Origin: Apostichopus japonicus
Lineage: Eukaryota > Echinodermata > Holothuroidea > Aspidochirotida > Stichopodidae
NCBI RefSeq assembly: GCF_037975245.1
Contig: NC_092577.1
Location: 1,958,501-2,022,500 of the forward strand
Direction: 5' to 3'
Length of the DNA: 64,000 nucleotides
The translations under genes were made by a program, and so were the position numbers. Shown in pieces: positions 14,601 through 60,558 of the stretch (positions are counted from its first letter, which is position 1; each line of letters begins with the position of its first letter). A model generated the notes under the pieces. That model had not been told where the DNA came from and made no database searches. It saw nothing but the letters and a program-made list of their open reading frames with translations.

Positions 14601-15011
14601 GAAAATTTATCAACTACATTAATTCAAAATAACTGTGTTGAAAGGAAGGACCCAGCACCAAATATCGATGGATTCAGTAAGGAATCAACCCGTCAAATAT
14701 GGGTCTGTTTTATTTCTTGTATTTACCGAACTCGTAGATCTGTGTGAATCATGTGTATTGAATGAATTGAATATATTCATATAGTAGTATTAACGTCTTT
14801 TTTTTTCCTGTAACACAGGTAATCTCAATTGGAATATATAGTCATAAGTGTACGAGCGGATTATGTGGACCGTCCACATAATCTTATACACATTTCATTG
14901 TATTGTTTATTGATTATAAACCAAAATTAGGGTTGAAAATTGATCAACTCTATTAATTCAAAATAACCGTTCTTATGAAAGACCACGCACCAAATATCGA
15001 CAGATTCAGGA

Positions 15012-16836: not shown

Positions 16837-19800
16837 GAATCACCCCGTCAAATATGGGTCTGTTTTATATCCAGTATTTACCGAACTCGTAGATCTGTTT
16901 GAATCATGTGTATTGAATGTATTGAATATATTCATATAGAAGTATTAACGTCTTTTTTCTGTAGCACACGTAATCTCAATTGGAATATATAATCGTAAGT
17001 GTACGAGCGGATTATGTGGACCGTCCACATAATCTTATACACATTTCATTGTATTGTTTATTGATTATAAACCAAAATTAGGGTTTAAAATTTATCAACT
17101 ACATTAATTCAAAACAACTGTGTTGAAAGGAAGGACCCAGCACCAAATATCTACAGATTCAGTAAGGAATCAACCCGTCAAATATGGGTCTGTTTTATAT
17201 CCTGTATTTACCGAACTCGTAGATCTGTTGAAATCATGTGTACTGAATGTATTGAATATATTCATATAGTAGTATTAACGTCTTTTTTTTTCTGTAACAC
17301 ACGTAATCTCAATTGGAATATATAATCGTAAGTGTACGAGCGGATTATGTGGACCGTCCACATAATCTTGTACACATTTCATTGTATTGTTTATTGATTA
17401 TAAACCAAAATTAGGCAATAAAAATTTATCAACTCTGTAAATTCAAAATAACCGTTCTTAGGAACCACCCCACACCAAATATCGACAGATTCAGTAAGGA
17501 ATCAACCCGTCAAATATGGGTCTGTTTTATATCCTTTATTTACCGAACTCGTAGATCTGTTTGAATCATGTGTATTGAATGTATTGAATATATTCATATA
17601 GTAGTATTAACGTCTTTTTTTTCTGTAACACACGTAATCTCAATTGGAATATATAATCGTAAGTGTACGAGCGGATTATGTGGACCGTCCACATAATCTT
17701 ATACACATTTCATTATATTGTTTATTGATTATAAACCAAAATTAGGGTTTAAAATTTATGAACAACAATAATTCAAAATAACTGTGTTCAAAGGAAGGAC
17801 CCCGCACCAAATATCGACAGATTCAGTAAAGAATCAACCCGTCAAATATGGGTCTGTTTTATAACCTTTATTTACCGAACTCGTAGATCTGTTTGAATCA
17901 TGTGTATTGAATGTATTGAATATATTCATATAGCAGTATTAACGTCTTTTTTTCTGTAACACACGTAATCTCAATTGGAATATATAATCGTAAGTGTACG
18001 AGCGGATTATTTGGACCGTCCACATAATCTTATACACATTTCATTGTATTGTTTATTGATTATAAACCAAAATAAGGGCATAAAAATTTATCAACTCTGT
18101 TAATTCAAAATAACCGTTCTTAGGAAACACCCCGCACCAAATATCGATAGATTCAGTAAAGAATCAACCCGTCAAATATCGGTCTGTTTTAAAACCAGTA
18201 TTTAACCGAACTCGTAGATCTGTTTGAATCATGTGTATTGAATGTATTGAATATATTCATATAGTAGTATTAACGTCTTTTTTCTGTAGCACACGTAATC
18301 TCAATTGGAATATATAATCGTAAGTGTACGAGCGGATTATGTGGACCGTCCACATAATCTTATACACATTTCATTGTATTGTCTATTGATTATAAACCAA
18401 AATTAGGGTTTAAAGTTTATCAACTACATTAATTCAAAATAACTGTGTTGAAAGGAAGGACCCAGCACCAAATATCTACAGATTCAGTAAGGAATCAACC
18501 AGTCAAATATCGGTCTGTTTTATATCCTGTATTTACCGAACTCGTAGATCTGATTAAATCATGTGTACTGAATGTATTGAATATATTCATATAGTAGTAT
18601 TAACGTCTTTTTTTTCTTTCTGTAACACACGTAATCTCAATTGGAATATATAATCGTAAGTGTACGAGCGGATTATGTGGACCGTCCACATAATCTTATA
18701 CACATTTTATTGTATTGTTTATTGATTATAAACCAAAATTAGGTTTGAAATTTATCAACTACATTAATTCAAAACAACTGTGTTGAGAGGAAGGACCCAG
18801 CACCAAATATCTACAGATTCAGTAAGGAATCAACCCGTCAAATATGGGTCTGTTTTATATCCTGTATTTACCGAACTCGTAGATCTAATTAAATCATGTG
18901 TACTGAAGGTATTGAATATATTCATATAGTAGTATTAACGTCTTTTTTTTTCTTTCTGTAACACACGTAATCTCAATTGGAATATATAATCGTAAGTGTA
19001 CGAGCGGATTATGTGGACCGTCCACATAATCTTATACACATTTCATTGTATTGTTTATTGATTATAAACCAAAATTAGGGTTTGAAATTTATCAACTACA
19101 TTAATTCAAAACAACTGTGTTGAGAGTAAGGACCCAGCACCAAATATCTACAGATTCAGTAAGGAATCAACCCGTCAAATATGGGTCTGTTTTATTTCTT
19201 GTATTTACCGAACTCGTAGATCTAATTAAATCATGTGTACTGAAGGTATTGAATATATTCATATAGTAGTATTAACGTCTTTTTTCTTTCTGTAACACAC
19301 GTAATCTCAATTGGAATATATAATCGTAAGTGTACGAGCGGATTATGTGGACCGTCCACATAATCTTATACACATTTCATTGTATTGTTTATTGATTATA
19401 AACCAAAATAAGGGCTTAAAATTTATCAACTACATTAATCCAAAATAACTGTGTTGAAAGGAAGGACCCCGCACCAAATATCGATAGATTCAGTAAGGAA
19501 TCAACCCGTCAAATATGGGTCTGTTTTATATCCAGTATTTACCGAACTCGTAGATCTGTTTGAATCATGTGTATTGAATGTATTGAATATATTCATATAG
19601 TAGTATTAACGTCTTTTTTTCTGTAACACACGTAATCTCAATTGGAATATATAATCGTAAGTGTACGAGCGGATTATGTGGACCGTCCACATAATCTTAT
19701 ACACATTTCATTATATTGTTTATTGATTATAAACCAAAATAAGGGTTTAAAATTTATCAACAACAATAACTCAAAATAACTGTATTCAAAGGAAGGACCC

Positions 19801-20004
19801 CGCACCAAATATCGACAGATTCAGTAAAGAATCAACCCGTCAAATATGGGTCTCTTTTATAACCTTTATTTACCGAACTCGTAGATCTGTTTGAATCATG
19901 TGTATTGAATGTATTGAATATATTCATATAGTAGTATTAACGTCTTTTTTTCTGTAACACACGTAATCTCAATTGGAATATATAATCGTAAGTGTGCGAG
20001 CGGA

Positions 20005-21340
20005 TTATGTGGACCGTCCACATAATCTTATACATATTTCATTGTATTGTCTATTGATTATAAACCAAAATGAGGGTTACAAATTTATCAACTACATTAA
20101 TTCAAAATAACTGTGTTCTTATGAAAGACCCAGCACCAAATATCGACAGATTCAGTAGTGAATCAACCCGTCAAATATGGGTCTGTTTTATATCCTGTAT
20201 TTACCGAACTCGTAGATCTGTTTGAATCATGTGTACTGAATGTATTGAATTTATTCATATAGTAGTATTAACGCCTTTTTTTCTGTAACACACGTAATCT
20301 CAATTGGAATATATAATCGTAAGTGTACGAGCGGATTATGTGGACCGTCCACATAATCTTATACACATTTCATTGTATTGTCTATTGATTATAAACCAAA
20401 ATTAGGGTTACAAATTTATCAACTACATTAATTCAAAATAACTGTGTTCTTATGAAAGACCCACGCCAAATATCGACAGATTCAGTAGTGAATCAACCCG
20501 TCAAATATGGGTCTGTTTTATATCCTGTATTTACCGAACTCGTAGATCTGTTTGAATCATGTGTACTGAATGTATTGAATTTATTCATATAGTAGTATTA
20601 ACGCCTTTTTTTCTGTAACACACGTAATCTCAATTGGAATATATAATCGTAAGTGTACGAGCGGATTATGTGGACCGTCCACATAATCTTATACACATTT
20701 CATTGTATTGTCTATTGATTATAAACCAAAATTAGGGTTACAAATTTATCAACTACATTAATTCAAAATAACTGTGTTCTTATGAAAGACCCACGCCAAA
20801 TATCGACAGATTCAGTAGTGAATCAACCCGTCAAATATGGGTCTGTTTTATATCCTGTATTTACCGAACTCGTAGATCTGTTTGAATCATGTGTACTGAA
20901 TGTATTGAATTTATTCATATAGTAGTATTAACGCCTTTTTTTCTGTAACACACGTAATCTCAATTGGAATATATAATCGTAAGTGTACGAGCGGATTATG
21001 TGGACCGTCCACATAATCTTATACACATTTCATTGTATTGTCTATTGATTATAAACCAAAATTAGGGTTACAAATTTATCAACTACATTAATTCAAAATA
21101 ACTGTGTTCTTATGAAAGACCCACGCCAAATATCGACAGATTCAGTAGTGAATCAACCCGTCAAATATGGGTCTGTTTTATATCCTGTATTTACCGAACT
21201 CGTAGATCTGTTTGAATCATGTGTACTGAATGTATTGAATTTATTCATATAGTAGTATTAACGCCTTTTTTTCTGTAACACACGTAATCTCAATTGGAAT
21301 ATATAATCGTAAGTGTACGAGCGGATTATGTGGACCGTCC
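20005..21340 (+). repeat. Recently homogenised run of 330-bp monomers
   Basis: Palindromes at 20334, 20664, 20994 and 21324 are exactly 330 bp apart, and by eye the monomers between 20400 and 21320 are identical, including the private variants 'acgcctttt' and 'cccacgcc'. The same variant reappears near 23085-23280. Confidence 0.85.
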
Positions 21341-24010
21341 ACATAATCTTATACACATTTCATTGTATTGTTTATTGATTATAAACCAAAATTATTGTTA
21401 CAAATTTATCAACTACATTATTTCAAAATAACTGTGTTCAAAGGAAGGACCCCGCACCAAATATTGACAGATTCAGTAAGGAATCAACCCGCCAAATATG
21501 GGTCTGTTTTATATCCTGTATTTACCGAACTCGTAGATCTGTTTGAATCATGTGTACTGAATGTATTGAATATATTCATATAGTAGTATTAACGTCTTTT
21601 TTTCTGTAACACACGTAATCTCAATTGGAATATATAATCGTAAGTGTACGAGCGGATTATGTGGACCGTCCACATAATCTTATACACATTTCATTGTATT
21701 GTTTATTGATTATAAACCAAAATAAGGGCTTAAAATTTATCAACTACATTAATTCAAAATAACTGTGTTGAAAGGAAGGACCCAGCACCAAATATCGATA
21801 GATTCAGTAAAGAATCAACCCGTCAAATATGGGTCTGTTTTATATCCTGTATTTACCGAACTCGTAGATCTGTTTGAATCATGTGTATTGAATGTATTGA
21901 ATATATTCATATAGTAGTATTAACGTCTTTTTTTCTGTAACACACGTAATCTCAATTGGAATATATAATCGTAAGTGTACGAGCGGATTATGTGGACCGT
22001 CCACATAATCTTATACACATTTCATTATATTGTTTATTGATTATAAACCAAAATAAGGGTTTAAAATTTATCAACAACAATAACTCAAAATAACTGTGTT
22101 CAAAGGAAGGACCCCGCACCAAATATCGACAGATTCAGTAAAGAATCAACCCGTCAAATATGGGTCTCTTTTATAACCTTTATTTACCGAACTCGTAGAT
22201 CTGTTTGAATCATGTGTATTGAATGTATTGAATATATTCATATAGTAGTATTAACGTCTTTTTTTCTGTAACACACGTAATCTCAATTGGAATATATAAT
22301 CGTAAGTGTGCGAGCGGATTATGTGGACCGTCCACATAATCTTATACACATTTCATTGTATTGTCTATTGATTATAAACCAAAATGAGGGTTACAAATTT
22401 ATCAACTACATTAATTCAAAATAACTGTTCTTAGGAAAGACCCAGCACCAAATATCGACAGATTCAGTAAAGAATCAACCCGTCAAATATGGGTCTGTTT
22501 TATATCCTGTATTTACCGAACTCGTAGATCTGTTTGAATCATGTGTATTGAATGTATTGAATATATTCATATAGTAGTATTAACGTCTTTTTTTCTGTAA
22601 CACACGTAATCTCAATTGGAATATATACTCTTAAGTGTGCGAGCGGATTATGTGGACCGTCCACATAATCTTATACACATTTCATTGTATTGTTTATTGA
22701 TTATAAACCAAAATTAGGGTTACAAATTTATCAACTACAATAATTCAAAATAACTGTGTTCAATTGAAAGACCCCGCACCAAATATCGACAGATTCAGTA
22801 AGGAATCAACCCGTCAAATATGGGTCTGTTTTATATCCTGTATTTACCGAACTCGTAGATCTGTTTAAATCATGTGTACTGAATGAATTGAATATATCCA
22901 TATAGTAGTATTAACGTAGTTTTCTTTCTGTAACACACGTAATCTCAATTGGAATATATAATCGTAAGTGTACGAGCGGATTATGTGGACCGTCCACATA
23001 ATCTTCTACACATTTCATTGTATTGTCTATTGATTATAAACCAAAATTAGGGTTACAAATTTATCAACTACATTAATTCAAAATAACTGTGTTCTTATGA
23101 AAGACCCACGCCAAATATCGACAGATTCAGTAGTGAATCAACCCGTCAAATATGGGTCTGTTTTATATCCTGTATTTACCGAACTCGTAGATCTGTTTGA
23201 ATCATGTGTACTGAATGTATTGAATTTATTCATATAGTAGTATTAACGCCTTTTTTTCTGTAACACACGTAATCTCAATTGGAATATATAATCGTAAGTG
23301 TACGAGCGGATTATGTGGACCGTCCACATAATCTTATACACATTTCATTGTATTGTTTATTGATTATAAACCAAAATTAGGGTTACAAATTTATCAACTA
23401 CATTATTTCAAAATAACTGTGTTCAAAGGAAGGACCCAGCACCAAATATTGACAGATTCAGTAAGGAATCAACCCGCCAAATATGGGTCTGTTTTATATC
23501 CTGTATTTACCGAACTAGTAGATCTGTTTGAATCATGTGTATTGAATGTATTGAATTGATTCATATAGTAGTATTAACGACTTTTTTTCTGTAACACACG
23601 TAATCTCAATTGGAATATATAATCGTAAGTGTACGAGCGGATTATGTGGACCGTCCACATAATCTTATACACATTTCATTGTATTGTTTATTGATTATAA
23701 ACCAAAATTAGGGTTACAAATTTATCAACTACATTATTTCAAAATAACTGTGTTCAAAGGAAGGACCCCGCACCAAATATTGACAGATTCAGTAAGGAAT
23801 CAACCCGTCAAATATGGGTCTGTTTTATATCCTGTATTTACCGAACTCGAAGATCTGTTTAAATCATTTGTATTGAATGTATTGAATATATTCATATAGA
23901 AGTATTAACGTCTTTTTTTTCTGTAACACACGTAATCTCAATTGGATTATATAATCGTAAGTGTATGAGCGGATTATGTGGACCGTCCACATAATCTTAT
24001 ACACATGATG

Positions 24011-26765: not shown

Positions 26766-29364
26766 ATGGAACGCCAAAAGGACCACGGTGACATGTACCA
26801 CTACTAATTCGAAGTGTACTACATCTAAAATGTCGCGTACTACTACTAATTCGAAGTGTACTACATCTAAAATGTCGCGTACTACTACTAATTCGAAGTG
26901 TACTACATCTAAAATGTCGCGTACTACTATTACTTCGAAGTGTACTACATCTAAAATGTCGCGTACTACTACTAATTCGAAGTGTACTACATCTAAAATG
27001 TCGCGTACTACTACTACTTCGAAGTGTACTACATCTAAAATGTCGCATACTACTACTCATTCGAAGTGTACTACATCTAAAATGTCGTGTAACTACTACT
27101 AATTCGAAGTGTACTATATCTTAAAGAACTACTACTAATTCGAAGTGTCTACATCTAAAATGTCGCGTACTACTACTAATTCGAAGTGTACTACATCTAA
27201 AATGTCGCGTACTACTACTAATTCGAAGTGTACTACATCTAAAATGTCGCGTACTACTACTAATTCGAAGTGTACTACATCTAAATGTCCCGTACTTCTA
27301 CTAATTCGAAATGTACTATATCTAAAATGTCGCGTACTACTACTAATTCGAAGTGTACTACATCTAAAATGTCCCGTACTACTACTAATTCGAAGTGTAC
27401 TATATCTAAAATGTCCCGTACTACTACTAATTCGAAGTGTACTACATCTAAAATGTCCCGTACTACTACTAATTCGAAGTGTACTACATCTAAAATGTCC
27501 CGTACTACTACTAATTCGAAGTGTACTACATCTAAAATGTCGCGTACTACTACTAATTCGAAGTGTACTACATCTAAAATGTCGCGTACTACTACTAATT
27601 CGAAGTGTACTACATCTAAAATGTCGCGTACTACTACTACTTCGAAGTGTACTACATCTAAAATGTCGCGTACTACTACTAATTCGAAGTGTACTACATC
27701 TAAAATGTCGCGTACTACTACTCATTCGAAGTGTACTACATCTAAAATGTCGTGTACTACTACTAATTCGAAGTGTACTATATCTTAAAGAACTACTACT
27801 AATTCGAAGTGTCTACATCTAAAATGTCGCGTACTACTACTAATTCGAAGTGTACTACATCTAAAATGTCGCGTACTACTACTAATTCGAAGTGTACTAC
27901 ATCTAAAATGTCGCGTACTACTACTACTTCGAAGTGTACTACATCTAAATGTCCCGTACTTCTACTAATTCGAAGTGTACTATATCTAAAATGGCGCGTA
28001 CTACTACTAATTCGAAGTGTACTACATCTAAAATGTCCCGTACTACTACTAATTCGAAGTGTACTACATCTAAAATGTCCCGTACTACTACTAATTCGAA
28101 GTGTACTATATCTTAAAGAACTACTACTAATTCGAAGTGTCTACATCTAAAATGTCGCGTACTACTACTAATTCGAAGTGTACTACATCTAAAATGTCGC
28201 GTACTACTACTAATTCGAAGTGTACTACATCTAAAATGTCCCGTACTACTACTAATTCGAAGTGTACTACATCTAAAATGTCCCGTACTACTACTAATTC
28301 GAAGTGTACTACATCTAAAATGTCGCGTACTACTACTAATTCGAAGTGTACTACATCTAAAATGTCGCGTACTACTACTAATTCGAAGTGTACTACATCT
28401 AAAATGTCGTGTACTACTACTAATTCGAAGTGTACTACATCTAAAATGTCGCGTACTACTACTAATTCGAAGTGTACTACATCTAAAATGTCGCGTACTA
28501 CTACTCATTCGAAGTGTACTACATCTAAAATGTCGTGTACTACTACTAATTCGAAGTGTACTATATCTTAAAGAACTACTACTAATTCGAAGTGTCTACA
28601 TCTAAAATGTCGCGTACTACTACTAATTCGAAGTGTACTACATCTAAAATGTCGCGTACTACTACTAATTCGAAGTGTACTACATCTAAAATGTCGCGTA
28701 CTACTACTAATTCGAAGTGTACTACATCTAAATGTCCCGTACTTCTACTAATTCGAAGTGTACTATATCTAAAATGGCGCGTACTACTACTAATTCGAAG
28801 TGTACTACATCTAAAATGTCCCGTACTACTACTAATTCGAAGTGTACTATATCTAAAATGTCCCGTACTACTACTAATTCGAAGTGTACTATATCTAAAA
28901 TGTCCCGTACTACTACTAATTCGAAGTGTACTACATCTAAAATGTCGCGTACTACTACTTCGAAGTGTACTACATCTAAAATGTCGCGTACTACTACTAC
29001 TTCGAAGTGTACTACATCTAAAATGTCGCGTACTACTACTAATTCGAAGTGTACTACATCTAAAATGTCGCGTGCTACTACTAATTCGAAGTGTACTACA
29101 TCTAAAATGTCGCGTACTACTACTAATTCGAAGTGTACTACATCTAAAATGTCACGTACTACTACTAATTCGAAGTGTACTTCTACTAATTTGAAGTGTA
29201 CTACATATGAAATGTCACGTACCACTACTAATTTGACATGTACTACTACTAAATTCATGTGTACTACATCTAAATTGTCACGTAATACTACTGATGTCAA
29301 TACCACTACCTCTAAAACGGAAGCTACTACTACTAGACCAATTAAACGCGAGAAATACACCTGC
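26766..29364 (+). repeat. 42-bp minisatellite array, ~57 copies
   Basis: The unit reads 'actactactaattcgaagtg' then 'tactacatctaaaatgtcgc' and 'gt'. As 42 is a multiple of 3 and the unit has no stops in several frames, at least four of six frames stay open: 14-residue repeats MSRTTTNSKCTTSK and CPVLLLIRSVLHLK on +, SSSTRHFRCSTLRI and VVVRDILDVVHFEL on -. A variant 'tatatcttaaag' recurs at 27115, 27779, 28107 and 28562, showing block amplification, and one-base losses ('tctaaatgtcc') shift the frame. The 3' end decays into NLTCTTTKF-like and TEATTT-like sequence before 'cgcgagaaatacacctgc' (29347-29364). Coding status is doubtful. Confidence 0.9.
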
Positions 29365-30352: not shown

Positions 30353-30620
30353 GCAGGTGTATTTCTCGCGTGTAGTCATTGGGTCAATGTTGTCGATAAG
30401 TTTGCGTACTTCGGCACATAGATTGTGCATAGCGCCATCGCTCCAATTTAGTAGTAGCAGCTTCCGTTTTAGATGTAGTACACTTCGAATTAGTAGTAGT
30501 AGCCTACGCCACATTTTAGATGTAGTACACTTCGAATTAGTAGTAGTACATGTCAAATTAGTAGTAGTATATGTCAAATTAGTAGCGGTACATGTCACTC
30601 TGGTCCTTTTGGCGTTCCAT
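30353..30620 (-). repeat. Inverted short sister copy of the 42-bp-array unit
   Basis: Read on the minus strand it begins 'atggaacgccaaaaggacca' exactly like 26766, carries only two or three 42-bp-type repeats, and ends 'cgcgagaaatacacctgc' exactly like 29347-29364. So the two copies share both ends in opposite orientation but differ in repeat number (about 57 versus 2-3). The minus frame contains TTREKYTC and LCAEVRKLIDNID, which could be ancient coding sequence. Confidence 0.75.
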
Positions 30621-31388: not shown

Positions 31389-38058
<6,670 letters not shown>

Positions 38059-41235: not shown

Positions 41236-42159
41236 CTAGAAATTAAATTTCAGATCGAATGAGAACAATTTTCCAGAATCTAATGTAGCAACAAGGAGTG
41301 ACCCTTTGTCATCTTCTTCTAATATACTCAAACAATATGAATCTTTGTTGACTGGTTTTGATGAAACTCTCCGGTGACCAACTTGGCTATATTTTAACAC
41401 GACGCATTGCCTTCCATCTGCTCTATATCGAACCCACAGGATATATATAAATCCGCTTTTATCTTTGCACACACTGATCGGTATCCAATCGGGCTCATCT
41501 GGGTCTGGTGATGACAAAAAATACTGTTTTCCGTACAGCCTACCTCCTCCTTCCTCCTTGGTGACTGAAAGAGCTGTTTTCTTCTCATAATCACAGACCA
41601 AGAGTGCATTGCTAACCACCGCCATATCAAATAGAGACCTGACCAGATATGGTAGTTTCATAGTGTGACAAAACTTCAATTTATAATCAAATACAAACAC
41701 TTTTCTGCAGTTCGTACCAACGAGGATTTGCTCCTTGACGAGATCAGTGGCTACACAGCGTACACACATATCGTCATACCAATTGGTCGTAATATCAGGG
41801 ATGGTCTTCTTTGTATATAATCCATTGCGGACATCGTACATACCTATTTCACAAGGTGCCGCAACGGTTGCAACCTTAGAATGTGGCAGAATGGCACAGT
41901 ATCGATGGGGATGATGTGGGTACCTGTCATTAGACCTACTCCTAAACGTATCCTGCCGTAACAGTTCTCGCCTACTCCTAAACGTATCCTGCCGTAACAG
42001 TTCTCCGTTTTGATTTAGAACAGTAACATGTGATTGGTCATCTGAGGCCAAACCAGAGACAACTATCCTTCCGCCATGGCCAGTTGTGATTCCGTTGACT
42101 AACCATTCTTCAGGGTTGAATCCTTTGATATTGATGACGGTCTTACCTCCTACTGCCAT
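41236..42159 (-). CDS. Beta-propeller protein, NHL/TRIM-tail-like (single ORF)
   Basis: 307 codons from ATG (42157-42159) to TAG. The sequence shows repeated blade-like patterns (GRIVVSGLA...HVTVLNQNGEL; ILVGTNCRKVFVFDY; GFIYILWV...VVLKYSQVG; GSLLVATLDSGKLFSFDL). This spacing and the 'hydrophobic strand, Gly, aromatic' rhythm match the C-terminal propellers of NHL or TRIM-like proteins. No RING, B-box or coiled coil is present in the frame. An acceptor-like 'ccttgtag' precedes an open TLLDVT before the ATG, so this could be the last exon of a longer gene; an in-frame TAG falls exactly across that AG. Residues near 56-80 hold a perfect 12-residue tandem duplication. Function unknown; a scaffold or ligand-binding role is only an inference from the fold. 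Confidence 0.65.
   Translation of the reverse strand: MAVGGKTVINIKGFNPEEWLVNGITTGHGGRIVVSGLASDDQSHVTVLNQNGELLRQDTFRSRRELLRQDTFRSRSNDRYPHHPHRYCAILPHSKVATVAAPCEIGMYDVRNGLYTKKTIPDITTNWYDDMCVRCVATDLVKEQILVGTNCRKVFVFDYKLKFCHTMKLPYLVRSLFDMAVVSNALLVCDYEKKTALSVTKEEGGGRLYGKQYFLSSPDPDEPDWIPISVCKDKSGFIYILWVRYRADGRQCVVLKYSQVGHRRVSSKPVNKDSYCLSILEEDDKGSLLVATLDSGKLFSFDLKFNF
41935..42005 (-). repeat. 36-bp in-frame duplication inside the propeller ORF
   Basis: The 36 bp starting 'cctactcctaaacgtatcct' at 41935 is repeated at 41971. It doubles ELLRQDTFRSR in the protein and keeps the frame. Confidence 0.9.
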
Positions 42160-42249
42160 TGTTACATCAAGGAGGGTCTACAAGGAACCTCCTTGGTTAC
42201 ATCATAAGAGAACAGTTACGGTAGAAGAGATCTGAAAGAAAGCATTGAT

Positions 42250-43240: not shown

Positions 43241-43249
43241 GCGATGACG

Positions 43250-43605
43250 ATGACAACGGTGGCAATGCCAACGGTGCCAATGTCAACGGTGACAATGCCA
43301 ACGTTGACAATTAAAACGGTGACAATGCCAACGTTGACAATGAAAACGGTGACAATGCCAACGTTGACAATAAAAACGGTGACAATGCCAACGTTGACAA
43401 TGAAAACGGTGACAATGCCAACGTTGACAATGAAAACGGTGACAATGCCAACGTTGACAATAAAAACGGTGACAATGCCAACGTTGACAATGAAAACGGT
43501 GACAATGCCAACGTTGACAATAAAAACGGTGACAATGCCAACGTTGACAATGAAAACGGTGACAATGCCAACGTTGACAATGAAAACGGTGACAATGCCA
43601 ATGAT
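43250..43605. repeat. 30-bp minisatellite, ~12 copies
   Basis: The unit is 'gacaatgccaacgttgacaa' plus 'tgaaaacggt' or 'taaaaacggt'. The two variants mostly alternate, giving a 60-bp higher-order period. As 30 is divisible by 3, several frames stay open (MPTLTMKTVT on +, VGIVTVFIVN and ALSPFSLSTL on -). Confidence 0.95.
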
Positions 43606-43911
43606 GACAGATGACAAAGGATATTGCTAGCCCAGCAAACAGCGGCGATAAGAATAGCAGTACCGCCATCTCCAATGAGAATAGTGAAGACGACAATAAT
43701 GACAACGAAACGGGACAAGATAGAAAAGCACAATAGTCACTGGCGATAACATCAGCGATGGCAACGTGGACGGGTGACAATGACAAAGCCGACGGCAGCG
43801 GTGAGTTTAAGAACAGCAAACAGCAAACAGCAACGATAACAACAGGAATATTACCATCGTCACTAAGGATAGTCAAGACGACAATAATTAGACAGGATAC
43901 CAAATACTATA

Positions 43912-45139: not shown

Positions 45140-45229
45140 AAAAAAACTTCCAACCTCCACCGGGAATCGAACCCGGGCCTCCCGCTTTAGGCCTATATGC
45201 GGACACCCTAACCACTAGGCTTTGGACGC
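45140..45229 (-). ncRNA. tRNA-like Pol III unit (tRNA pseudogene or SINE head)
   Basis: On the minus strand 45229-45153: GCGTCCA can pair with TGGAGGT in 6 of 7 acceptor positions. The A box is TAGTGGTTAGG (45207-45217) and the B box GGTTCGATTCC (45163-45173). There is a perfect 5-bp T stem, and an anticodon stem TCCGC/GCGGG whose loop is 13 nt rather than 7. A T7 run (45140-45146) follows as a Pol III terminator. The oversized anticodon loop argues against a working tRNA. Confidence 0.7.
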
Positions 45230-49674: not shown

Positions 49675-49835
49675 TCAGTCACGGAGTGAAATCTTGATAT
49701 GGATTCCTTTCGAGGCTCGCAGTATCAGTTCATTCACCAAACCCAATTCTTCGAATGTCTGAGTGGATGTCATTTTCACTTTTCTCAAAACTGATGCCAT
49801 CATAGCTTTCTGCTCCATCAGTGCAAATTTTTGTC
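49675..49835 (-). CDS. Gene B terminal exon 11
   Basis: 161 bp, stop TGA at 49675-49677. Encodes GQKFALMEQKAMMASVLRKV and ends HIKISLRD. An AATAAA-type cluster on the minus strand lies about 380 bp downstream near 49295. Confidence 0.93.
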
Positions 49836-52800
49836 CTGTGAATATCAAAAACAAAATCAATAAGCAAGAGTGATTTATGATCACGAAAGGAAAAAAATAC
49901 ATTAAAGGGTGTGAAGACTCGCGCAAAAAGAAACGTCTAATGCCGGTAATCTGACCTAGTTTCGAATGAGGTGTAACAGAAGTGTTAGACACCACCATCG
50001 ATCCCAAATAATACACACACACAGCTTGCTTGTATCGGTAATTAGACACTAGTGTACAGTCAGTACATACAGCTGCGGTCAATACCCACAGCACAGTGTA
50101 CGAACGATACAGCGATTGACATCTCAGGTCCAGCTAAAGATAACAAGGTATCACGTTCCTTTACTGTACAGTCTGCATTTTGTAGCGACACGAACAAAAC
50201 GTCACTTGCAAGTAACGGAAAGTTAACTTTTTCAGATGGCCGCAAGCGGTTTGAGGCGAGTCTTCAATGCCTTTAATGACAGAAAGGGGAACAACTTACG
50301 GTTCTTCTATGCGTATTATATATTAATAATATTAATAATAGTAATATATATTAATAATACGATTTTAAGTGATACGTGATTAAAAACATCATAATTTACA
50401 GTCACAACCCACCACAATAAAGATATCGTGGATTATTAATGATCCCACGCAACTTGACATAGCTTTTCTCTAAAAGTAACATTTACGCTCCACAAGAACC
50501 AAAAATATGATGGGTTATAAAGGCTTCCTAGTAAAACATACCATCACCGCTCCCTCTAAGGTTGTTTTTTAATTTTCAAACCTACCAGAGGAAAGCCATA
50601 AAATCTTCACGATTACGTTCCAGCAAAACAAAGACATCGTGTTGTAAATGCCCTCTAGCAACAACTACATCCCTCCCACCAAAATGTTTACCCCATAAAC
50701 TAATTTGTTGTAACCCACCAGAACAAAGACATCATGAGATCGATATATAATGGTTCCCTAGCAACACCTTCATATCTCCCTGTTCTTCTTATTATTTTTA
50801 TTTTATTTTTTTACATTAACAAAATACCAGAACACAGCCATTATGGGATACATATGCTTCCGACAGTAACATCTTAATAGCTTCCTCTGGAATCGTCCCA
50901 ATTGTAGTAAAGAAGAACCAACAAAATGCTTATAATGTACATGCACGTATTAATGAATATTGATTTAAGCTTTAAGAATCACGGTACGAAGCATTTACTG
51001 AGATAACAATTTGTTTTTGAAAACAACATCATCAAACCAAAATGACCGTTTCAACGAGTAACCGCCTAAAACGGTATAAATTCTGAAATGTTGACGTTTC
51101 ACACATTTTCCAATTACCTCGACAAAGCGTCAAATATGTAAATAAAACTGATGAAGAAATAAGCGTAGGCTATAGCTCTCTGACTGAGTATCACATTCTT
51201 TGAATCAACTATAAAACCTATTTGATTTTCTCAACATATTAAAAAAAAACTAGAAGCATGATGAGTCAGTATAGTACATCGAAGTATTAACTTAAACTGA
51301 TAAATTTTACCAACAAAGTAATTTTCTTCTTCTATTTCTGACGTAGGCAGGACGCAAGAATCATTAACTTTATGTACACCGATGTGTGTGTGTTTTGTTC
51401 TTGTTAGTACATTAGCCTTGAATTTCTTTTAAAAAAAAAAACTGTCATATCAGCTTGAAATATATATAAGACGAAAATTATGATGATTCCTTTGGTTGAC
51501 TAAACAGGCAGTTGTAACATGACGAAAACACTCACCGATACAGTTTCTGTGTCCAGCAGAAAATGGCAAGAACGTAAAGTTCGGTCGATCTTGAGAATTT
51601 GCTGGTAGAAAACGATCAGGGTCAAATTTCTCAGGATTAGGGAAATATTTGGGATCACGATGAAGCCAGTAGTATCCCATCCATACAGGAGTACCTTTTG
51701 GTAGAATGGTCCCGCCTGGTGGAATTTAATGTAAGAGAAGCAAGGAATTGCAGAAAATATACTCTTTTCGTTGTGGAAAATATAATCATAATCTTTTATG
51801 TCAATATATTAAAATGATCAAATATAACTGTCGTTAAAAGACCTGTTACTGATAATCTTTATACCGTTATTATTGAAGATGACTTTGTTAGAAAATCCAC
51901 TGCAGAGAGATTCGAACCACTGATAGTCAAAATGGAAAATTAATCAGCAAGCTGCATATTTGTTCGTTGTTTGTTTATTCCCTTTACTTTGCTGTAGTTG
52001 TTTTTGTTGAAGGGGCTGGATGATAAATACCGGCTTTATGCTAAGTTATATATACGTACACATATGTTTATCACTCTCGAGGTTTCGTCCAACATAGGGG
52101 ACAGTTGTCAGTACCCGTTGACATTCCTTCATCACATATCCGAGATATTCCAGCTTTTGAAGATCTTCCATCATTATCTTCTTGTCGCGATCATTTCCTG
52201 TTTCAAATGGAGGGGAAAAAAAAAACCCATCAAAGTTTGAATGAGAAATAAAATGTGTGGGTAGAGCTGGATTTTGGCAACAGCCATTTTTCATTAACAC
52301 ACCGACCGTGCACATAGGTGTAGGAGCCCAATTTGATTTGGGGGGGGGGGCTGTAACGACTTGCCCGAAAAGTATAACCAAACTTTTTCGCGCGCTCTGC
52401 GCACGTTCAACATGTTAATTTGCACATCATATAGGCATGCATTGGTTATTACATCGCATGCCAATTTGCACACAATCATTTGCCGTTTTATTACCCTTCC
52501 ATATTGGTTATCATTTTGGGGAAGTCGTTACAATAATAATTATAATAATAATAATATCAGTTTAACCATTGAAAAACACATTGCAATTTATTTTTCTTCC
52601 AGGAGGTGCCCGAAAATATTCTCAGCATACTGTCCGAATTTTCACAAAAATATTTGGTTGGGGGCGGCAGAAGCCAGCCCCCCCCCCCCGCCTCCTACGA
52701 CTATGCCCGTGCATGACTAGCTAGATTAGAGTAGACCCTAAAGTATTAAAGTAGTAGTTATTGATCTCTGTGTATCCACCCATCGTGCATAAGTAGGGGG

Positions 52801-55800
52801 ACTTTATGTTAGAAGTTATACGGGCGCAGTAACGTGACGTCACCAACAGAATGAAGTAGCTTAGAATTAGCAATAATTCTTGAGGAGCTGCTTAAATCAC
52901 GTGACACCTTCTCTACGGAATTCTTTCTTTGTATCGTATGTGTTCTTCACTCACCCTCAAAGTTTGAACACAAACACACATATAGATAGATGTCAATTTG
53001 GGGGTGGGGGGGGGGGGGAGATACATTACATGAAAACAAAATAATGCGGCAGGTACATTATGTTTAAGACGTAAGTTGTATTATGATGTGATGTACAGTG
53101 AGGTAACTGACCCAACACTAAATCCAACTCCTCGTGAACTTTCCGTTGTACTTCAGGGTTTCTGGCCAGTAAGTAGAAGGCCAACGCAACGGTGGAAGAG
53201 ATTGTATCGTGCCCCTGGAGTTTAAAAAGAAAAAATATAGCAACCCCTGTCAGAATAATATATACATAATTCAATAGTGAGGCCACGTGTTGGATACCGG
53301 GACAGAACTCTGTAATGTGACTGTTTCACATTACAATTATTATCTTTGATTGCAGTAGAATTCAGCTGTTCTGTGATGGCTGTCTGTATGTTATTCTCAC
53401 TACATAACACATACTGAAATATATTTATTTACTTGTAGCAGTATAATCTGCGAACATTGCCAGTACTCTAACGTAAAACACTCTGGATCTCGTCTCCCAC
53501 TATCTACTAAGTGAGTTAATAATACTGTATCCTTGAACAACTCTCAACTCAGTGTTTTTGGTTACTGTAACTGTAACACTTCAAAGCTCACCGCATCTAT
53601 CAGTTAATAGCCATATCTTTAGTTTCTCTATTTTTCTCGAACACGACGGAACTCACCTCAAACATGAATGTATCAACCTCTTCCTGGATTCCTTCGTCAG
53701 TGAGGTCGCTGTTCTGTCGCTGAGCTTCTATCAGTAGGTCCAGGAAAGCCAACTTGCGACGCTTCCGGACCTCTTGGGACATATCATCAATGGTGACGTC
53801 ATCGGTACTTCGCATATTTTCCAATTCTTTCTTTCTGTCCGCTATTACCTAAAACAAAGGCAAAGGGAAGAAAGGAACCAAAAAAAAAAAAAACCACGAG
53901 ACGATGGATTGTGCCTTCATGTGTAACAAATGGTCGTTATGAATTATTAGATAAGCTGGACGGTTCAAATGAAAACAAAAAACTGTTACCTTTTTCGTTG
54001 TATATTGTAGCGTTTTTAATGCTTTCATCCACTCCCTCCCAACGGATGTGCATCTAAAGAAAGTGTCATTCCAATACCATGGACATTGAGTTCGCTGAGT
54101 AAAAATGGTGCCCAACCTATGTGAAAGAAATATTATACATATATACATATATAATATAAATATATATATCCCACCCGGCCCCCTCCCCGTTACCCGCGTG
54201 ATATACAACTTACTTGTGCAATAGATGTTATGTAAAATTATACGTTTTGCAAAACTGAAAAACAAAACAACTTATTATGATTCATGTCCTTCCTTGTCTG
54301 TAGCAAGTTTTTATCGAGAAGCAGTGCAGGAATATATGTATGTTATTGCGCACTGTACCCCCTCCCCCTCCCGCTCCCCAACCCCTCCCGCTCTCCTCCC
54401 CTACCCCTACCCCTCCCCTCCCCTCGCCCTCCCCTTCCCCCTCCCCTCCCTTCCCCTCCCTTCCCCTCCCTCCCCTCCCCATCCCGATTTAAGACACCAG
54501 TGCCAGTCGCTCTTCTCGGGCAGACCTGCTTTAACATGGGGTACTCGATAATGCTATATCGAAACAACTATACATCTGTTCCACGTTTACTCACTAGAAA
54601 ATTTGCACACAAAGGTTGGCATCATAGGTATAATATTGTTACCTCTTCAAAGGATAACACTCGCTATTTGGGTAATATGTAAAGTAAAGTAAAGTAAAGT
54701 AAAGTAAAGTAAAAAAACAAACTTATAACGTGGATTAATAAAAAAATGGTGCAATAATGTTTGTCGACATAAAGCCATGAGAGTTTAGTAATACGTGGTT
54801 TGAGATATAAAGTAAATATATTTTCAAGTTGTATGAACTTCTAAAGTATCTTACTTGTGTACCGCCTCCATGTACTCTTGTCCTTGTCCTTTCTGAGATC
54901 GAAGGTCCACTCCCATGATAGTTTCTGAAAAGTAAAAATCAAACAATGACTTTCTTTAGAACATTGAAAATAAAGTTCAAACATCTTCCAACGAAATCGA
55001 ATTTAAAGTCTCCTCAATGTCAATAAAGTGTTTGCCCTTTCGGGCTTTTGGATTATGATTTCATATTAAGGGTTTCACCTGGTATTCATTTTGTGAGGTG
55101 ACCGCCTCTTTGTGGTTTTTTTTTCTCTCCTCCTTTTGCGACAGCCTCGCAAAAATATTACCGACATCGCCGCCTCACAGAGTAGGAATTAAAAAAGGTC
55201 AATGTGTGTAATCCAATTTTTTTATCCCATGCCATCATTTGACATTGACAAATTTGGTTGTGAACAATACATTATTGTAACAAATAGAAGTTCTTCTGGC
55301 TATTTAACATAGAATTTAATTTGTTTTTATCTACTTTATTGTTAGCATGCATGATTTACATTAGGATATTTATCACACTTTGTCCGGGTTGACCATGAAT
55401 AAATGAGACCACATTCATTACATGACACCAGTGGTTCACTCCTTTGTTGATTGGGGAGGGGGAGGGGGAGGGGAGGGGGAGGGGAGGGGAGGAGGAGGGG
55501 GAGGGGAGGGGGTTGGGAACCGTTACATACAGTGCCCTCTCTTCCTGGCCACGATGTCTTTGTGTCCTACCTATGTGAAACGGATATTAAGGTGGAATGT
55601 AGACAAAATTGTAGTCAACATACTTCATAGCTTCCATATAGCTATTCCGGTCGTTAATATCTTCAGTTTTTTTTTTTTTATTATATGCTTTATCGCTCGA
55701 GTGCTCCTTACATATCAACATATTATCCTGTCATGGTCTTTTGTTTGGAAGAAAAGTAACCCTGGATAAAGCCCGGACACGACACACACAAAAAAAATTC

Positions 55801-58800
55801 CCCCTCTTGAGCCTCCAGATGTCGCCTGACATAGAAACTGTAGCTGTGAAATCATGATAACGATATTTACGGCAATTGGATATCACAGGTCCCTTGGAAA
55901 GGTAATAAATACTACACATGATAAGGTGAAAGGTTGATCTATAGTGAATTCACATGATCACATGATCTTAACCTAAAGGAACATAAATCTCAGGTTATAT
56001 GACCATAAACAGCTGCCCAATACAGAACAAAGGTAGAAAAACATGTATGCATTACACCGTTGCAAAATGTCATGTTAGACGACATATTGTTTTATAAGAA
56101 CTTATTCACACATAGACAGCATATATAGCAGAACCTATGGTAGCATACACCCATAAAAAGCCCCATTGACTTACACACTAAATCACAAAAGTAATGTGGT
56201 CTCTTAGTCTAGATAGAAGTTCTCACTAGCTCACGCGCAGTTTTTTTGTTTGTTATTAGAGCCTCAAGTTTTCGTCACTTGCAAACAAACCTCTCCAGTC
56301 AGTAGTAAACAATTTTCGTACGCTGCTCCTTGGTAGGTTTAAAGGGGTCTAAACTTGCTTCAATTGACCCAATTTTTAGCACCACATGTACTTCCATTCA
56401 TGGATGCTCTTCAACATGTAAGCCTACCAATTGTCAGAGCTGATGCAACAACGCCTTTTCCATCCTCTCTATCGCTATCTTACTAATTTCTTTTGGTAAT
56501 GGAAAATGTGGAATGATTTGATCTTTCATGTTGCACCCGCCAAGTTGTACATCATTCACTGATTATACATTATACAAAGAAATTGTTAACATTTTTCTCA
56601 AGTGTATCAGACAAACGAATAAACGATGCTGGTGGCGCATTTCAAAGTCTTACCAAATATTGTATCCAGAGAAGTCATCGTTATAATTGGAATGATATCC
56701 ATTGCTGGACTATCCGATAAACCACATAGTCTGTCTGATAAACGCTGAGCGTGCTCGATCATGGTAGGGAGAAACTTTTCCAAGATGGAAAAATGAAAAG
56801 ATGGAGTTAAAAGCTTCCGTCTTGAGACCCATTTCGGACCTTTGCTGCATGGAAGAACAATAGGTCTATATTGATGAATTTTAATTGAATATGAATTAAG
56901 ATTATCGCAGCTGAATGGGATACAGTATAACTGACTATGCATTGTTATAAGTTATTTGTGGATACGTCGTTAAGTAAAATATAATACTAAAATTGTGACA
57001 AAATCCGCAGATGTTTTGTAAAGAGAAGTATTCTCACGTCGCCGGGCAGACCACGATTAAAGCCACATGCAAACAAAAAGACTGAACCGAATGATGTCAT
57101 TTATTATTCACTTATAAGAGGTTATCATTTTATTGGCTATAATTTTGACTATGATATGCTCATCGCAACAACCGTGCTTCTCCATACAACAGAGAAAGAT
57201 CAAAAGAAAAACCAGCCGTCTGATAGCAGTCTCAAAGGATATATGCTACTCTTATCTATGTCCATATCTGTCCATCTATGTCCATGCATGTCCATCTATG
57301 TCCATCCATGTCCATCATGTCTATGCTACTATTGTCCATGTCCATATATGTCCATATATGTCCATATATGTCCATTGATGTCCATATATGTCCATATATT
57401 TCCATACATGTCCATCCATGTCCATCATGTCTATGCTACGATCGTCTATGTCCATCTATGTCCATTGATGTCCATCTATGTCCATCTATATCCATCCATG
57501 TCCATCCATGTCCATCATCTATGCTACTATTGTTCATGTCGGTCTTGGAATCTACGCCTATAGTCTGCTACTAACTTTTAATATTTTACCTCATAAGCAG
57601 CCCATCATGCAGCCAGTCTTTCAACAAGTAATACTGGAACGCTTTCAAGTCTACACTAGTGTCACGAAGCACATTCTGCAAGAAAATATAACGTAGTAAA
57701 AATCAAGTCATTTCGAGTTTTAACTATTGTAGCGATTGACCATTGACGGAATTATGTAAAAATGGAATGCAGTCAATAATGTAAACAATGTAACTATGCG
57801 GTGTGATATAATGTAACATCACATCACATCAAATCGCATCGCATCGTACTGTATCATGACCCACTCAATCGATTATTACATACAACCTGTAAAGTCATTC
57901 TTTAGTAAAACCTTATACTTACAAATCCATTTTCGATCAAACCCCAACAATGAAACTGAATTGTTACAAGTGGAAGCCAGGCTTCCATTAGTTACCTCCT
58001 CATCTCTCTCATTGTAAACTATTAGCATAGGAGTCCATCCCATATACACAACAAACTGAATTGTTACATGTGGAAACGAGGCTTCCATTAGTTACCTCCA
58101 AATCCCTCTCATTGTAAACTATTAGCATAGAAGTCCATCCCATGTACATCACAAACTGAATTGTTACAAGTGAAAACGAGGCTTCCATTAGTTACCTCCA
58201 AATCCCTCTCATTGTAAACTTTTAGCATAGGAGTCCATCATATGTGCATCACAAACTGAATTGTCACAAGTGGAAGCGAGGCTTCCATTAGTTACCTCCA
58301 CATCCCTCTCATTGTAAACTTTTAGCATAGGAGTCCATCATATGTGCATCACAAACTGAATTGTTACAAGTGGAAACGAGGCTTCCATTAGTTACCTCCA
58401 AATCCCTCTCATTGTAAACTATTAGCATAGAAGTCCATCCCATGTACATCACAAACTGAATTGTTACAAGTGAAAACGAGGCTTCCATTAGTTACCTCCA
58501 AATCCCTCTCATTGTAAACTATTAGCATAGAAGTCCATCCCATGTACATCACAAACTGAATTGTTACAAGTGAAAACGAGGCTTCCATTAGTTACCTCCA
58601 AATCCCTCTCATTGTAAACTTTTAGCATAGGAGTCCATCATATGTGCATCACAAACTGAATTGTCACAAGTGGAAGCGAGGCTTCCATTAGTTACCTCCA
58701 AATCCCTCTCATTGTAAACTATTAGCATAGGAGTCCATCCCATATACATAACAAACTGAATTGTTACAAGTGAAAACGAGGCTTCCATTAGTTACCTCTA

Positions 58801-60558
58801 AATCCCTCTCATTGTAAACTATTAGCATAGGAGTCCATCCCATGTATATCACAAAGCTTCCAGAATCGCGAAACTCCTCTGCCCATTTCGTTATTGCCTT
58901 AAAGAAGTCTGAAAAATAAAAAAATAAAATAAACGAAAAATAAAGAAGTATACTTGATTAAGATGGTGATGATCATTATTTTGTATCTATAAAATGTATC
59001 TCTAATGTAACTAAAATGGGGAAGGTTCTAGGGGAAGTTCCCTAGGGCAGTGAGCATATGAAACAAGGGTGCTTATATGCAAAATGGTGCTATATTTGGT
59101 GACTTTTAAGCCAGTCAAAAACTTTGATTGAGAAGTATAAATCAACCAAATGGCTATTTGTCACATTTGAGATATCAATGTATATACAAGAAAAAATTGC
59201 GTTTTTTAAGACCAGTCTTCCCGATAGCCGGATACAGAAATCAATACCAAAAAAAAAAAAAAAGACTTGGTTGGTAAGGAACCTTCAGAAATAACCAAAA
59301 AAATAAATTTATGATTGACAATACACATTATTGGCGGAGCATATACTACACCTGTTGTGGCGTGCTTGTCCATTTTATATGTATATAGGAAAGGGGAACG
59401 TCCTGACCCGTCTCGAGTGCTACTGCAGGATGGTATTAGATTTGGATTAATAGCGGATTTGATGTTTAAAAAAGCTTCTATTTACTTTGGACAGATTTTG
59501 TTTAAATTACATGTCAATCAGATAAACACAGAAAGATTGCGATACAGACGGCGCCAATTGCCTCATGGGGTTGTGAAGGGTTTCTATAGTTTCAGTTCGA
59601 GGATCAAGATGTACGCTTGTTTAGCCCCATGACCGCCGCGGATGGAGCACAGAGGTGGTATATAGAGCAATTTATGACCCTGTCCGCCGCTAAACTTTAC
59701 CTGTTACACGTGCTTTACGCAGTAGATAAGCAGCTTGTTGAAGATGTTCTTCCTTCTCATTTATATTCTATAAACCAGACAAGATTATTTATTTCACGTC
59801 TCATCAAATTGTCTCTTCTCTATTAATTCATGTCAGATACAATATTGACTTTGTTATCCACAAATAATTTTCTAAACCATGTATATCTGGATCTAGATAA
59901 CTCCCCACATCCTTTAGTTTATGTTAAGGTACCACATCTTAGTGTACATCCGCTGAAACAAAAGAGAGCTTAAATGACCTAATAAGTAATGCTTGGTTTT
60001 AGCATATTATCAGTGATCATCAATGTTTGTTCTGCCGTAATGTGAAAAGAGCATAATTAAAAGTACAGATGGTGTGAAAATATGGAGGATTGAAGGTGAT
60101 ATAAACCATTATAGAAAATCTTTGGATAAATGTTGATATTACTCCGAGCGAGCAGACGGAAGGGTTGGGGTTCAGTATGCTAAAGTTGCTCCTCTTTTCT
60201 AAACGGTCATGATATGTCAATTGGCAAGTTCCATGACAGGCCAAGACCTCAGCTTCTCATGTGATGGGTAGGATATGTCAGTTGAAAACTTCTATCTATG
60301 CTTTGGCAGGTCTTGAAAGTGACGAGTTTAGTGTGTAAGTCAATGGAACAATTAATTGTGGTGCGACACTTTAAGAGTCGACTAACCTTCATTGTTGCTT
60401 CCAAGCTGTAGAAGGTTCCCGATAATAGGAAGCGGTGTAGGTCCCTTGATGTGTCGCAATTTGTACCGCCAAGAGTAATATTTCCATAAAGCAAAGATAA
60501 GTAAAGTAACACCGCTGACACCTATCAGCTGGAATCCTCCTTTAACTGTTAACATCAT
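49675..60558 (-). CDS. Cytochrome P450, CYP4-like, complete (gene B)
   Basis: Eleven exons on the minus strand: 60387-60558, 58796-58908, 57590-57675, 56654-56844, 54855-54924, 53990-54116, 53657-53848, 53112-53214, 52060-52197, 51536-51715, 49675-49835. They sum to 1533 bp, i.e. 510 residues plus TGA, with GT-AG junctions and matching phases. Residues ~9-25 form a membrane anchor; 39-48 the proline hinge GPTPLPIIGN; W129-R133 the WxxxR; E317 begins EGHDT of helix I; E376-R379 the ExxR; 428-433 FDPDRF; F449-G458 the heme signature FSAGHRNCIG with Cys456. Length is typical of CYP4. It is expected to be an ER-anchored monooxygenase; the substrate is not deducible. The start is the first real ATG after a TATA element. 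It lies tail to tail with gene A. Confidence 0.92.
51536..51715 (-). CDS. Gene B exon 10 (heme loop)
   Basis: 180 bp. Encodes GTILPKGTPVWMGYYWLHRD, FDPDRFLPAN and FSAGHRNCI. Acceptor 'ttccaccag', donor 'gtgagt'. Confidence 0.95.
52060..52197 (-). CDS. Gene B exon 9 (ExxR)
   Basis: 138 bp. Encodes MMEDLQKLEYLGYVMKECQR and VLTTVPYVGRNLESDKHM. Acceptor 'ttgaaacag', donor 'gtacgt'. Confidence 0.93.
52313..52705. mobile_element. hAT-like non-autonomous element (393 bp) in gene B intron
   Basis: Ends CATAGGTGTAGGAG / CTCCTACGACTATG (near-complementary), with 8-bp flanks accgtgca (52305-52312) and cccgtgca (52706-52713), one mismatch. Subterminal G-run left and C-run right pair with each other. 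The matching intron of gene A lacks it. Confidence 0.75.
53112..53214 (-). CDS. Gene B exon 8
   Basis: 103 bp. Encodes GHDTISSTVALAFYLLARNP and VHEELDLVL. Acceptor 'aaactccag', donor 'gtcagt'. Confidence 0.92.
53657..53848 (-). CDS. Gene B exon 7 (I helix start, Glu present)
   Basis: 192 bp. Encodes VIADRKKELE, FLDLLIEAQRQNSDLTDEG and ends EEVDTFMFE. The last codon GAG supplies the CYP4 heme-ester Glu. Confidence 0.93.
53990..54116 (-). CDS. Gene B exon 6
   Basis: 127 bp. Encodes LGTIFTQRTQCPWYWNDTFF and ends LQYTTKK. Acceptor 'ttcacatag', donor 'gtaaca'. Confidence 0.9.
54357..54484. repeat. C/T-rich (CCCCTCC)n tract in gene B intron
   Basis: About 128 bp of nearly pure pyrimidine; matching G/A tracts occur in the next upstream intron at 55458-55512. 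ORFs are shadows. Confidence 0.9.
54679..54712. repeat. (AAAGT)n pentanucleotide repeat
   Basis: About six 'gtaaa' units, followed by an A-run, in gene B intron. Confidence 0.9.
54855..54924 (-). CDS. Gene B exon 5
   Basis: 70 bp. Encodes ETIMGVDLRSQKGQGQEYME. Acceptor 'acttttcag', donor 'gtaaga'. Confidence 0.9.
55458..55512. repeat. G/A-rich (GGGGA)n tract
   Basis: Near-pure purine tract in gene B intron 4. Confidence 0.9.
56654..56844 (-). CDS. Gene B exon 4 (WxxxR)
   Basis: 191 bp. Encodes KGPKWVSRRKLLTPSFHF and SLDTIF. Acceptor 'catgcag', donor 'gtaaga'. Confidence 0.92.
57245..57535. repeat. 10-bp minisatellite in gene B intron 3
   Basis: Iterated 'tccatctatg', 'tccatatatg' and 'tccatccatg'. 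The His/Pro/Tyr ORFs over it are repeat frames. Confidence 0.9.
57590..57675 (-). CDS. Gene B exon 3
   Basis: 86 bp, acceptor 'attttcttgcag', donor 'gtaaaa'. Encodes NVLRDTSVDLKAFQYYLLKD and WLHDGLLM, the B-B' region (WLHDGLL is CYP4-like). Confidence 0.88.
57953..58858 (-). repeat. Nine 100-bp copies of exon 2's 3' half plus its splice donor
   Basis: The word 'ttagcatag' recurs at an exact 100-bp spacing (58022, 58122, ... 58822). Each unit holds the coding stretch for MGWTPMLIVYNERD, the donor context 'gag|gtaac', and about 45 nt of intron. The copy nearest 58850 is the real exon 2. Units differ by a few substitutions and two sub-types alternate ('catgtacatc' versus 'tatgtgcatc'). Confidence 0.95.
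58796..58908 (-). CDS. Gene B exon 2
   Basis: 113 bp, acceptor 'tatttttcag', donor 'gag|gtaact'. Encodes FFKAITKWAEEFRDSGSF and YMGWTPMLIVYNERDLE. The 3' part of this exon is the first of nine tandem 100-bp copies. Confidence 0.88.
59000..60100. other. Gene B intron 1, unannotated part
   Basis: ORFs at 59315-59632 and 59617-59826 (+) have no splice or family support and run opposite to gene B. Left uncalled. Confidence 0.4.
60110..60370. repeat. Gene B intron-1 segment, copy 1 of a local repeat
   Basis: Contains 'atattactccgagcgagc', 'aaacggtcatg', 'acttctatctatgct' and 'gacgagtttagtgtgtaagt'. The same order recurs at 61575-61800 and, split by a transposon, at 61835-61900 plus 62631-62710. 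Confidence 0.75.
60387..60558 (-). CDS. Gene B exon 1 (signal anchor)
   Basis: 172 bp, ATG ATG at 60558-60553, donor 'gaag|gttagt'. Encodes MMLTVKGG, a hydrophobic run to about Trp25, and the Pro-rich hinge. The frame extends upstream only through a TTG, so the ATG pair is chosen. Confidence 0.88.

Follow-up and report, generated by a model that had tools for sequence, protein, structure and literature searches.

The P450 gene and its paralog

The minus strand of the window (the whole 64,000-nucleotide stretch of Apostichopus japonicus DNA that was analysed) carries a P450 gene in which a tandem array covers the end of exon 2 and most of intron 2. Its 11 exons (60558-49675) were positioned manually, with homology and splice signals as guides. 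All 10 introns of the model have GT-AG ends, the shortest of them is 141 nt, and the P450 domain of the product was confirmed (Pfam PF00067, p450, E = 1.3e-104). The formal cut-off for a CYP family lies at about 40% identity. We call the gene CYP4-type from its nearest solved relatives rather than from identity to named CYP4 members; the top structures are the CYP4B1 chains 5t6q and 6c93, with 231 and 228.2 bits, and the next one reaches 147.7. The gene and the parts of it that concern us are listed below (here and throughout, a slash within a motif marks a splice site or a junction).

49675-60558, minus strand: P450 gene model, 11 exons, 510 aa plus stop, open frame (homology and splice signals)
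58796-58908, minus strand: exon 2, 113 nt; unit 1 begins with the last 60 nt of this exon, and the donor GAG/GTAACT comes after 58796 (gene model; the paralog shares boundary and phase)
57676-58795, minus strand: intron 2, 1120 nt, mostly array (gene model)
57590-57675, minus strand: exon 3, acceptor TTTTCTTGCAG/AAT (gene model)

Intron 3 of the same gene holds a 10-bp minisatellite (ATCTATGTCC) at 57254-57516.

A tblastn search of 314 kb of the contig, window included, found a second P450. Its exons 4-11 lie on the plus strand within the window and its exons 1-3 in L017, a stretch of the same contig; outside the window's own loci and L017, no further P450 match was found in the 314 kb.

31389-38058 (exons 4-11) and L017:4467-7192 (exons 1-3), plus strand: paralog, CYP4-type, open frame (tblastn and joining)

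The two parts are separated by 74,196 bp, exons 1-3 being upstream of exon 4, and their order, strand, phase and homology suggest that they form one gene. When joined, they give a 508-aa open frame which is 75.7% identical to the host P450 over 510 aligned positions. Between the two genes, dN/dS is 0.23 and dS 0.62 (exons 4-11), which indicates constraint. The paralog's exon 2 ends in GAG/GTAAGA, in a single copy and at the same position and phase as in the host gene, and TRF found no 100-bp array in L017. Thus, copy number differs between the paralogs, nine versus one in the single paralog compared. The putative intron 3 of the paralog would measure 74,196 bp and holds large satellite arrays; a 331-bp satellite of about 37 copies lies within it at 11420-24006.

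Anatomy of the array

Tandem Repeats Finder (TRF) described the array at 57953-58855 as 9.0 copies of period 100, with 93% matches and 0% indels. In the minus-strand register, unit 1 begins at 58855 and unit 9 ends at 57956.

57956-58855, minus strand: tandem array of nine direct, gap-free 100-bp units (TRF, register cut and column comparison)

Each unit consists of the terminal 60 nt of exon 2 followed by the initial 40 nt of intron 2, and the donor GAG/GTAACT is present identically in all nine. The 36 unit pairs, all of which were compared, are 87-100% identical, and units 3 and 7 have the same sequence. The array overlaps the exon-intron boundary, a boundary supported by the paralog, and is thus an internal tandem repeat that spans it. 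An earlier note on this DNA had described the unit as an exon tail with its donor and a little intron, repeated at exactly 100 bp, and both points agree with our results; its coordinates were right to within three bases, with the array ending at 58855 instead of 58858. When 209 array bases were searched as DNA against the own genome, four matches were obtained, every one within the array; this search is insensitive, for it missed exon 2 of the paralog despite 79.6% identity over 49 nt. The nine-fold array is real, and it is unusual in having nine identical donors together with matching acceptor-like sites.

Origin and growth of the array

Because the paralog has the same exon-2 boundary without the array, the array was most likely, and most simply, gained in one gene copy after the P450 duplication; it is less likely that the paralog lost it. 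At its front the array is flanked by GGAAGC/TTTGTG and at its end by ATTCAG/TTTCATTG. Joining these flanks at TTT would yield the unit junction, ATTCAG/TTTGT. We propose that, after the gene duplication, a 100-bp segment that straddled the boundary of exon 2 and intron 2 was duplicated in tandem at this short TTT match, and that unequal exchange would then have expanded the array to nine copies, with the clearest block copying at an offset of 400 bp.

58474-58700, minus strand: 227-bp block, repeated exactly at 58074-58300, offset 400 bp (self-comparison)

Only 0.515% of 20000 random unit orders contained an exact run as long as 227 bp at any offset. Shorter exact runs, given no separate significance test, extend over 147 bp at offset 100 and 151 bp at offset 300. 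Column 51 is A in unit 9 and in the paralog and G in units 1-8, and column 9 is A in unit 1 and in the paralog and G in units 2-9. These data fit an array that grew partly through block copying by unequal exchange, a process for which one assembly gives no timing. The earlier note had proposed ongoing exchange between copies; the 227-bp match supports exchange as such.

The nine donors and their read-through

Splice sites were scored with a small weight matrix built from those of the P450 gene itself, namely nine donors (that of exon 2 being excluded) and ten acceptors. The array donor scores 8.54, a value reached by 26 of the 3886 minus-strand GT sites of the window, the nine copies included. 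After the exon 2 donor at 58796, eight further donors follow at 100-nt steps (58696 to 57996). Eight extra, "nearly perfect" donors had been noticed before. They do match the real one letter by letter; the wording is generous in that position +5 is C in the array (GTAACT), where the paralog has G (GTAAGA). The exon 6 donor of the same P450 gene likewise has C at +5. Just beyond the array, intron 2 has another good donor, TTT/GTAAGT, at 57922 (score 6.34).

It had been suggested that some of the later donors would lengthen the exon in frame, by 300n nt, and also that stops occur in the read-through. The stops are there, and the in-frame idea fails because all eight later donors, used as the end of exon 2, run into a stop in unit 2, at codon 124. 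A longer exon 2 through the later donors in frame is thereby ruled out.

Units 2-9 as potential exons

The unit junction, ATTCAG/TTTGT, contains an acceptor-like CAG which was absent from the earlier account. Together with the donor it frames the following candidates.

57956-58755, minus strand: units 2-9, potential 60-nt phase-0 exons (CAG/TTTGT...GAG/GTAACT; unit comparison and translation)

Units 2, 4, 5, 8 and 9 would be open to the natural stop, and units 3, 6 and 7 have an in-frame TGA. Use as a separate 60-nt exon is the only potentially frame-preserving use of a copy that we found here.

The junction acceptors score 2.27 (units 2, 4, 5, 6 and 8), 0.20 (units 3 and 7) and -0.11 (unit 9). 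All ten real acceptors are above every one of them (3.72-10.14, leave-one-out), with that of exon 2 at the top (10.14). Among the 3240 minus-strand AGs, 13.7-30% score as well as the junction acceptors. Unused AGs of intron 2 that beat them lie at 57911 (5.56) and inside units 4, 5 and 8 (2.36). The motif CTAAT, a yUnAy match, stands at donor +8 and 32 nt ahead of the CAG in all nine units; such matches are common, and the last 60 nt contain one in 9 of the 10 real introns. Pyrimidine content is 0.60-0.65 in the units versus 0.65-0.90 in the real introns. Neighbouring potential exons are 40 nt apart, and skipping one unit would leave an intron of 140 nt, about the length of the shortest real one. 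A donor-branch length below 50 nt is called critical in PMC11291888. By ordinary rules, a 40-nt intron with a donor-branch distance of 8 nt should not splice, yet it is not impossible, since human ultra-short introns of 37-65 nt are described (22 screened, 15 supported; PMC4463651).

Constraint among the units

The nine units vary at 18 of their 100 columns. Conservation is no higher in the exon part than in the intron part (13 of 60 columns variable versus 5 of 40; Fisher P = 0.30). An invariant 9-nt donor is within chance, being expected in 16% of placements (P = 0.16), and the longest invariant run, 20 columns that include the donor and CTAAT (58-77), is not unusual (P = 0.21); selection on the donor finds no support in either value. 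Differences of the units from the consensus comprise 6 synonymous and 20 non-synonymous changes, counts which are not independent events as related copies share changes, and TGA in three units. With 20 against 6, and with TGA in units 3, 6 and 7, the copies do not each show the coding constraint that would mark an exon cluster. No coding or splice-site constraint was detectable among the nine units, though a comparison based on only 18 variable columns has little power. The results lean towards drift in the extra copies but do not prove it. No special RNA fold was found in units 1, 2, 3 and 9 folded whole (z-scores -0.80, -0.52, +1.30 and -0.95). A GGAAGC hairpin appears in eight of the nine folds of the unit's last 45 nt.

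Interpretation

Our preferred reading, to which we give a probability of about 0.7, is that the array is a minisatellite at the edge of the coding sequence which spans the exon-intron boundary, is tolerated, and is spliced from its first donor. Unit 1 would stay the working end of exon 2. Units 2-9 would lie in intron 2 and most likely be removed along with it under normal conditions, because the strong exon 2 acceptor would pair with the nearest donor across the 113-nt exon. The downstream copies would drift and are probably near-neutral, three of them sharing one derived exon type with a stop. The gap-free units, the array-free paralog, the 227-bp block, the lack of coding-like constraint and the codon-124 stops all speak for this reading. 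Counting against it are the intact state of 9 of 9 donors and 8 of 8 junction CAGs, though for the donor this is within chance, the symmetry of the exon part (60 nt, phase 0), and the CTAAT placed 32 nt before the CAG in every unit. In addition, duplicated-donor experiments often favour the intron-proximal copy, so that the later donors would be predicted to be in use. Taken together, the evidence speaks more for a tolerated array than for a splicing device.

Units 2-9, each of them a complete 60-nt phase-0 exon, might instead be a nascent cluster of cassette or mutually exclusive exons, a proposal we regard as unlikely. Because CTAAT lies only 8 nt inside the donor and the gap is 40 nt, neighbours would be unjoinable, so that at least one unit would have to be skipped, with a 140-nt intron; the product would either repeat the 20-aa FVIYMGWTPMLIVYNERDLE segment or run into a stop. 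The ATTCAG/TTTGT ahead of units 2-9, phase 0 on both sides, the frame kept to the natural stop in five of eight units and a CTAAT which in nine of nine stands at donor +8, 32 nt ahead of the CAG, all fit such a cluster. A steric rule of this kind also has precedent in human mutually exclusive clusters, where the donor-branch distance is below 50 bp in 57 (9%) (PMC5740500), in OGDH (PMC7969005) and in PMC11291888. However, every junction acceptor (-0.11 to 2.27) falls below all ten real ones and is equalled by 13.7-30% of AGs, and intron 2 offers better AGs elsewhere, at 57911 and inside units 4, 5 and 8. The pyrimidine content is low and yUnAy matches are common, there is no coding constraint among the copies, and the P450 fold would probably be disturbed if the segment were present twice. 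A more elaborate form of the idea is somewhat harder to credit: eight 60-nt phase-0 exons would stand ready in a row, the joining of neighbours would be forbidden, and copy number and the identity of the stop-bearing copies would set the output of isoforms and of NMD.

It is improbable, to our mind, that the array throttles the gene through NMD. Some transcripts would then be spliced from a later donor, or include a stop-bearing unit, and would be destroyed, and copy number would tune P450 output. The eight donors do equal the real one, and all of them, as well as units 3, 6 and 7 used as exons, would give premature stops; the invariance of the donor, however, is what chance would give (P = 0.16). 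We find it very improbable that the downstream AGGT donors form a platform that binds U1, as decoys or as helpers of a weakened +5C donor, or that they are silent recursive sites of dual specificity which leave no trace in mRNA. The nine copies of GAG/GTAACT and the +5 G of the paralog versus C here point in this direction, and human UBC makes use of tandem AGGT sites of dual specificity (PMC10809524). On the other hand, GAG/GT scores -7.5 as an acceptor, and 84% of AGs are equal or better; by this score alone, AGGT as a recursive or dual-specific 3' site is disfavoured. Since the exon 6 donor carries C at +5 as well, this base by itself does not point to a defective donor, and for U1 binding the sole support is resemblance.

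Relation to known systems

As a tolerated boundary-spanning minisatellite, the array is of a known kind. Internal tandem repeats at exon-intron boundaries, able to change splicing, are described in primate segmental duplications (PMC2812944); the variable ones there average 30-bp units in four copies, and new introns can arise from those at boundaries. The present array resembles them as a minisatellite over an exon-intron boundary in a duplicated gene, and differs from the repeats as described there in its 100-bp unit, its nine copies, each with a donor and an acceptor-like CAG, and in being known from sequence alone. In the case described in PMC4974935 a tandem duplication likewise crosses a splice boundary and inherits its splice signals; there it was the acceptor side that was duplicated, giving a new intron, whereas here the donor side is present nine times and would form extra exons. 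The dual-specific array of UBC (PMC10809524) likewise consists of nine units in tandem, and AGGT recurs in it at a fixed interval. Its units are coding and its AGGT serves as a 3' site too, while here AGGT is a poor 3' site and units 2-9 are intronic. With the mutually exclusive clusters of PMC5740500 and PMC7969005 the array shares phase-compatible duplicated exons and a branch-like site near the upstream donor. Unlike the exons of those clusters, the copies here are half exons, three of the eight have stops, and their use is putative; copy 1 would not be swappable because the upstream half of exon 2 is fused to it only. Our literature search, mostly at the level of titles and abstracts, found no donor-spanning array in a P450, which does not show its absence from print.

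The locus offers a natural nine-fold duplication of a donor in which identical sites recur at a fixed spacing; the array-free paralog serves as a control, and the reading frame provides a sharp test. Transcripts would show whether exon definition alone holds the first of nine identical donors, and also whether new exons can arise from a duplication that crosses a donor. Should the first donor alone be in use, the array is an ordinary intronic minisatellite.

Other features of the window

A 42-bp array of about 60 copies occupies 26795-29292, and related-looking units lie 1.2 kb away on the other strand, at 30475-30597. At 41236-42177 (minus strand) there is a 313-aa open frame with a 36-bp tandem duplication (100% matches) at 41935-42005, and at 43245-43614 a 30-bp array of 12.3 copies in which several frames are open. 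An Rfam tRNA match at 45152-45229 (minus strand; 41.1 bits, no ARAGORN call) may represent either a tRNA gene or an element derived from a tRNA.
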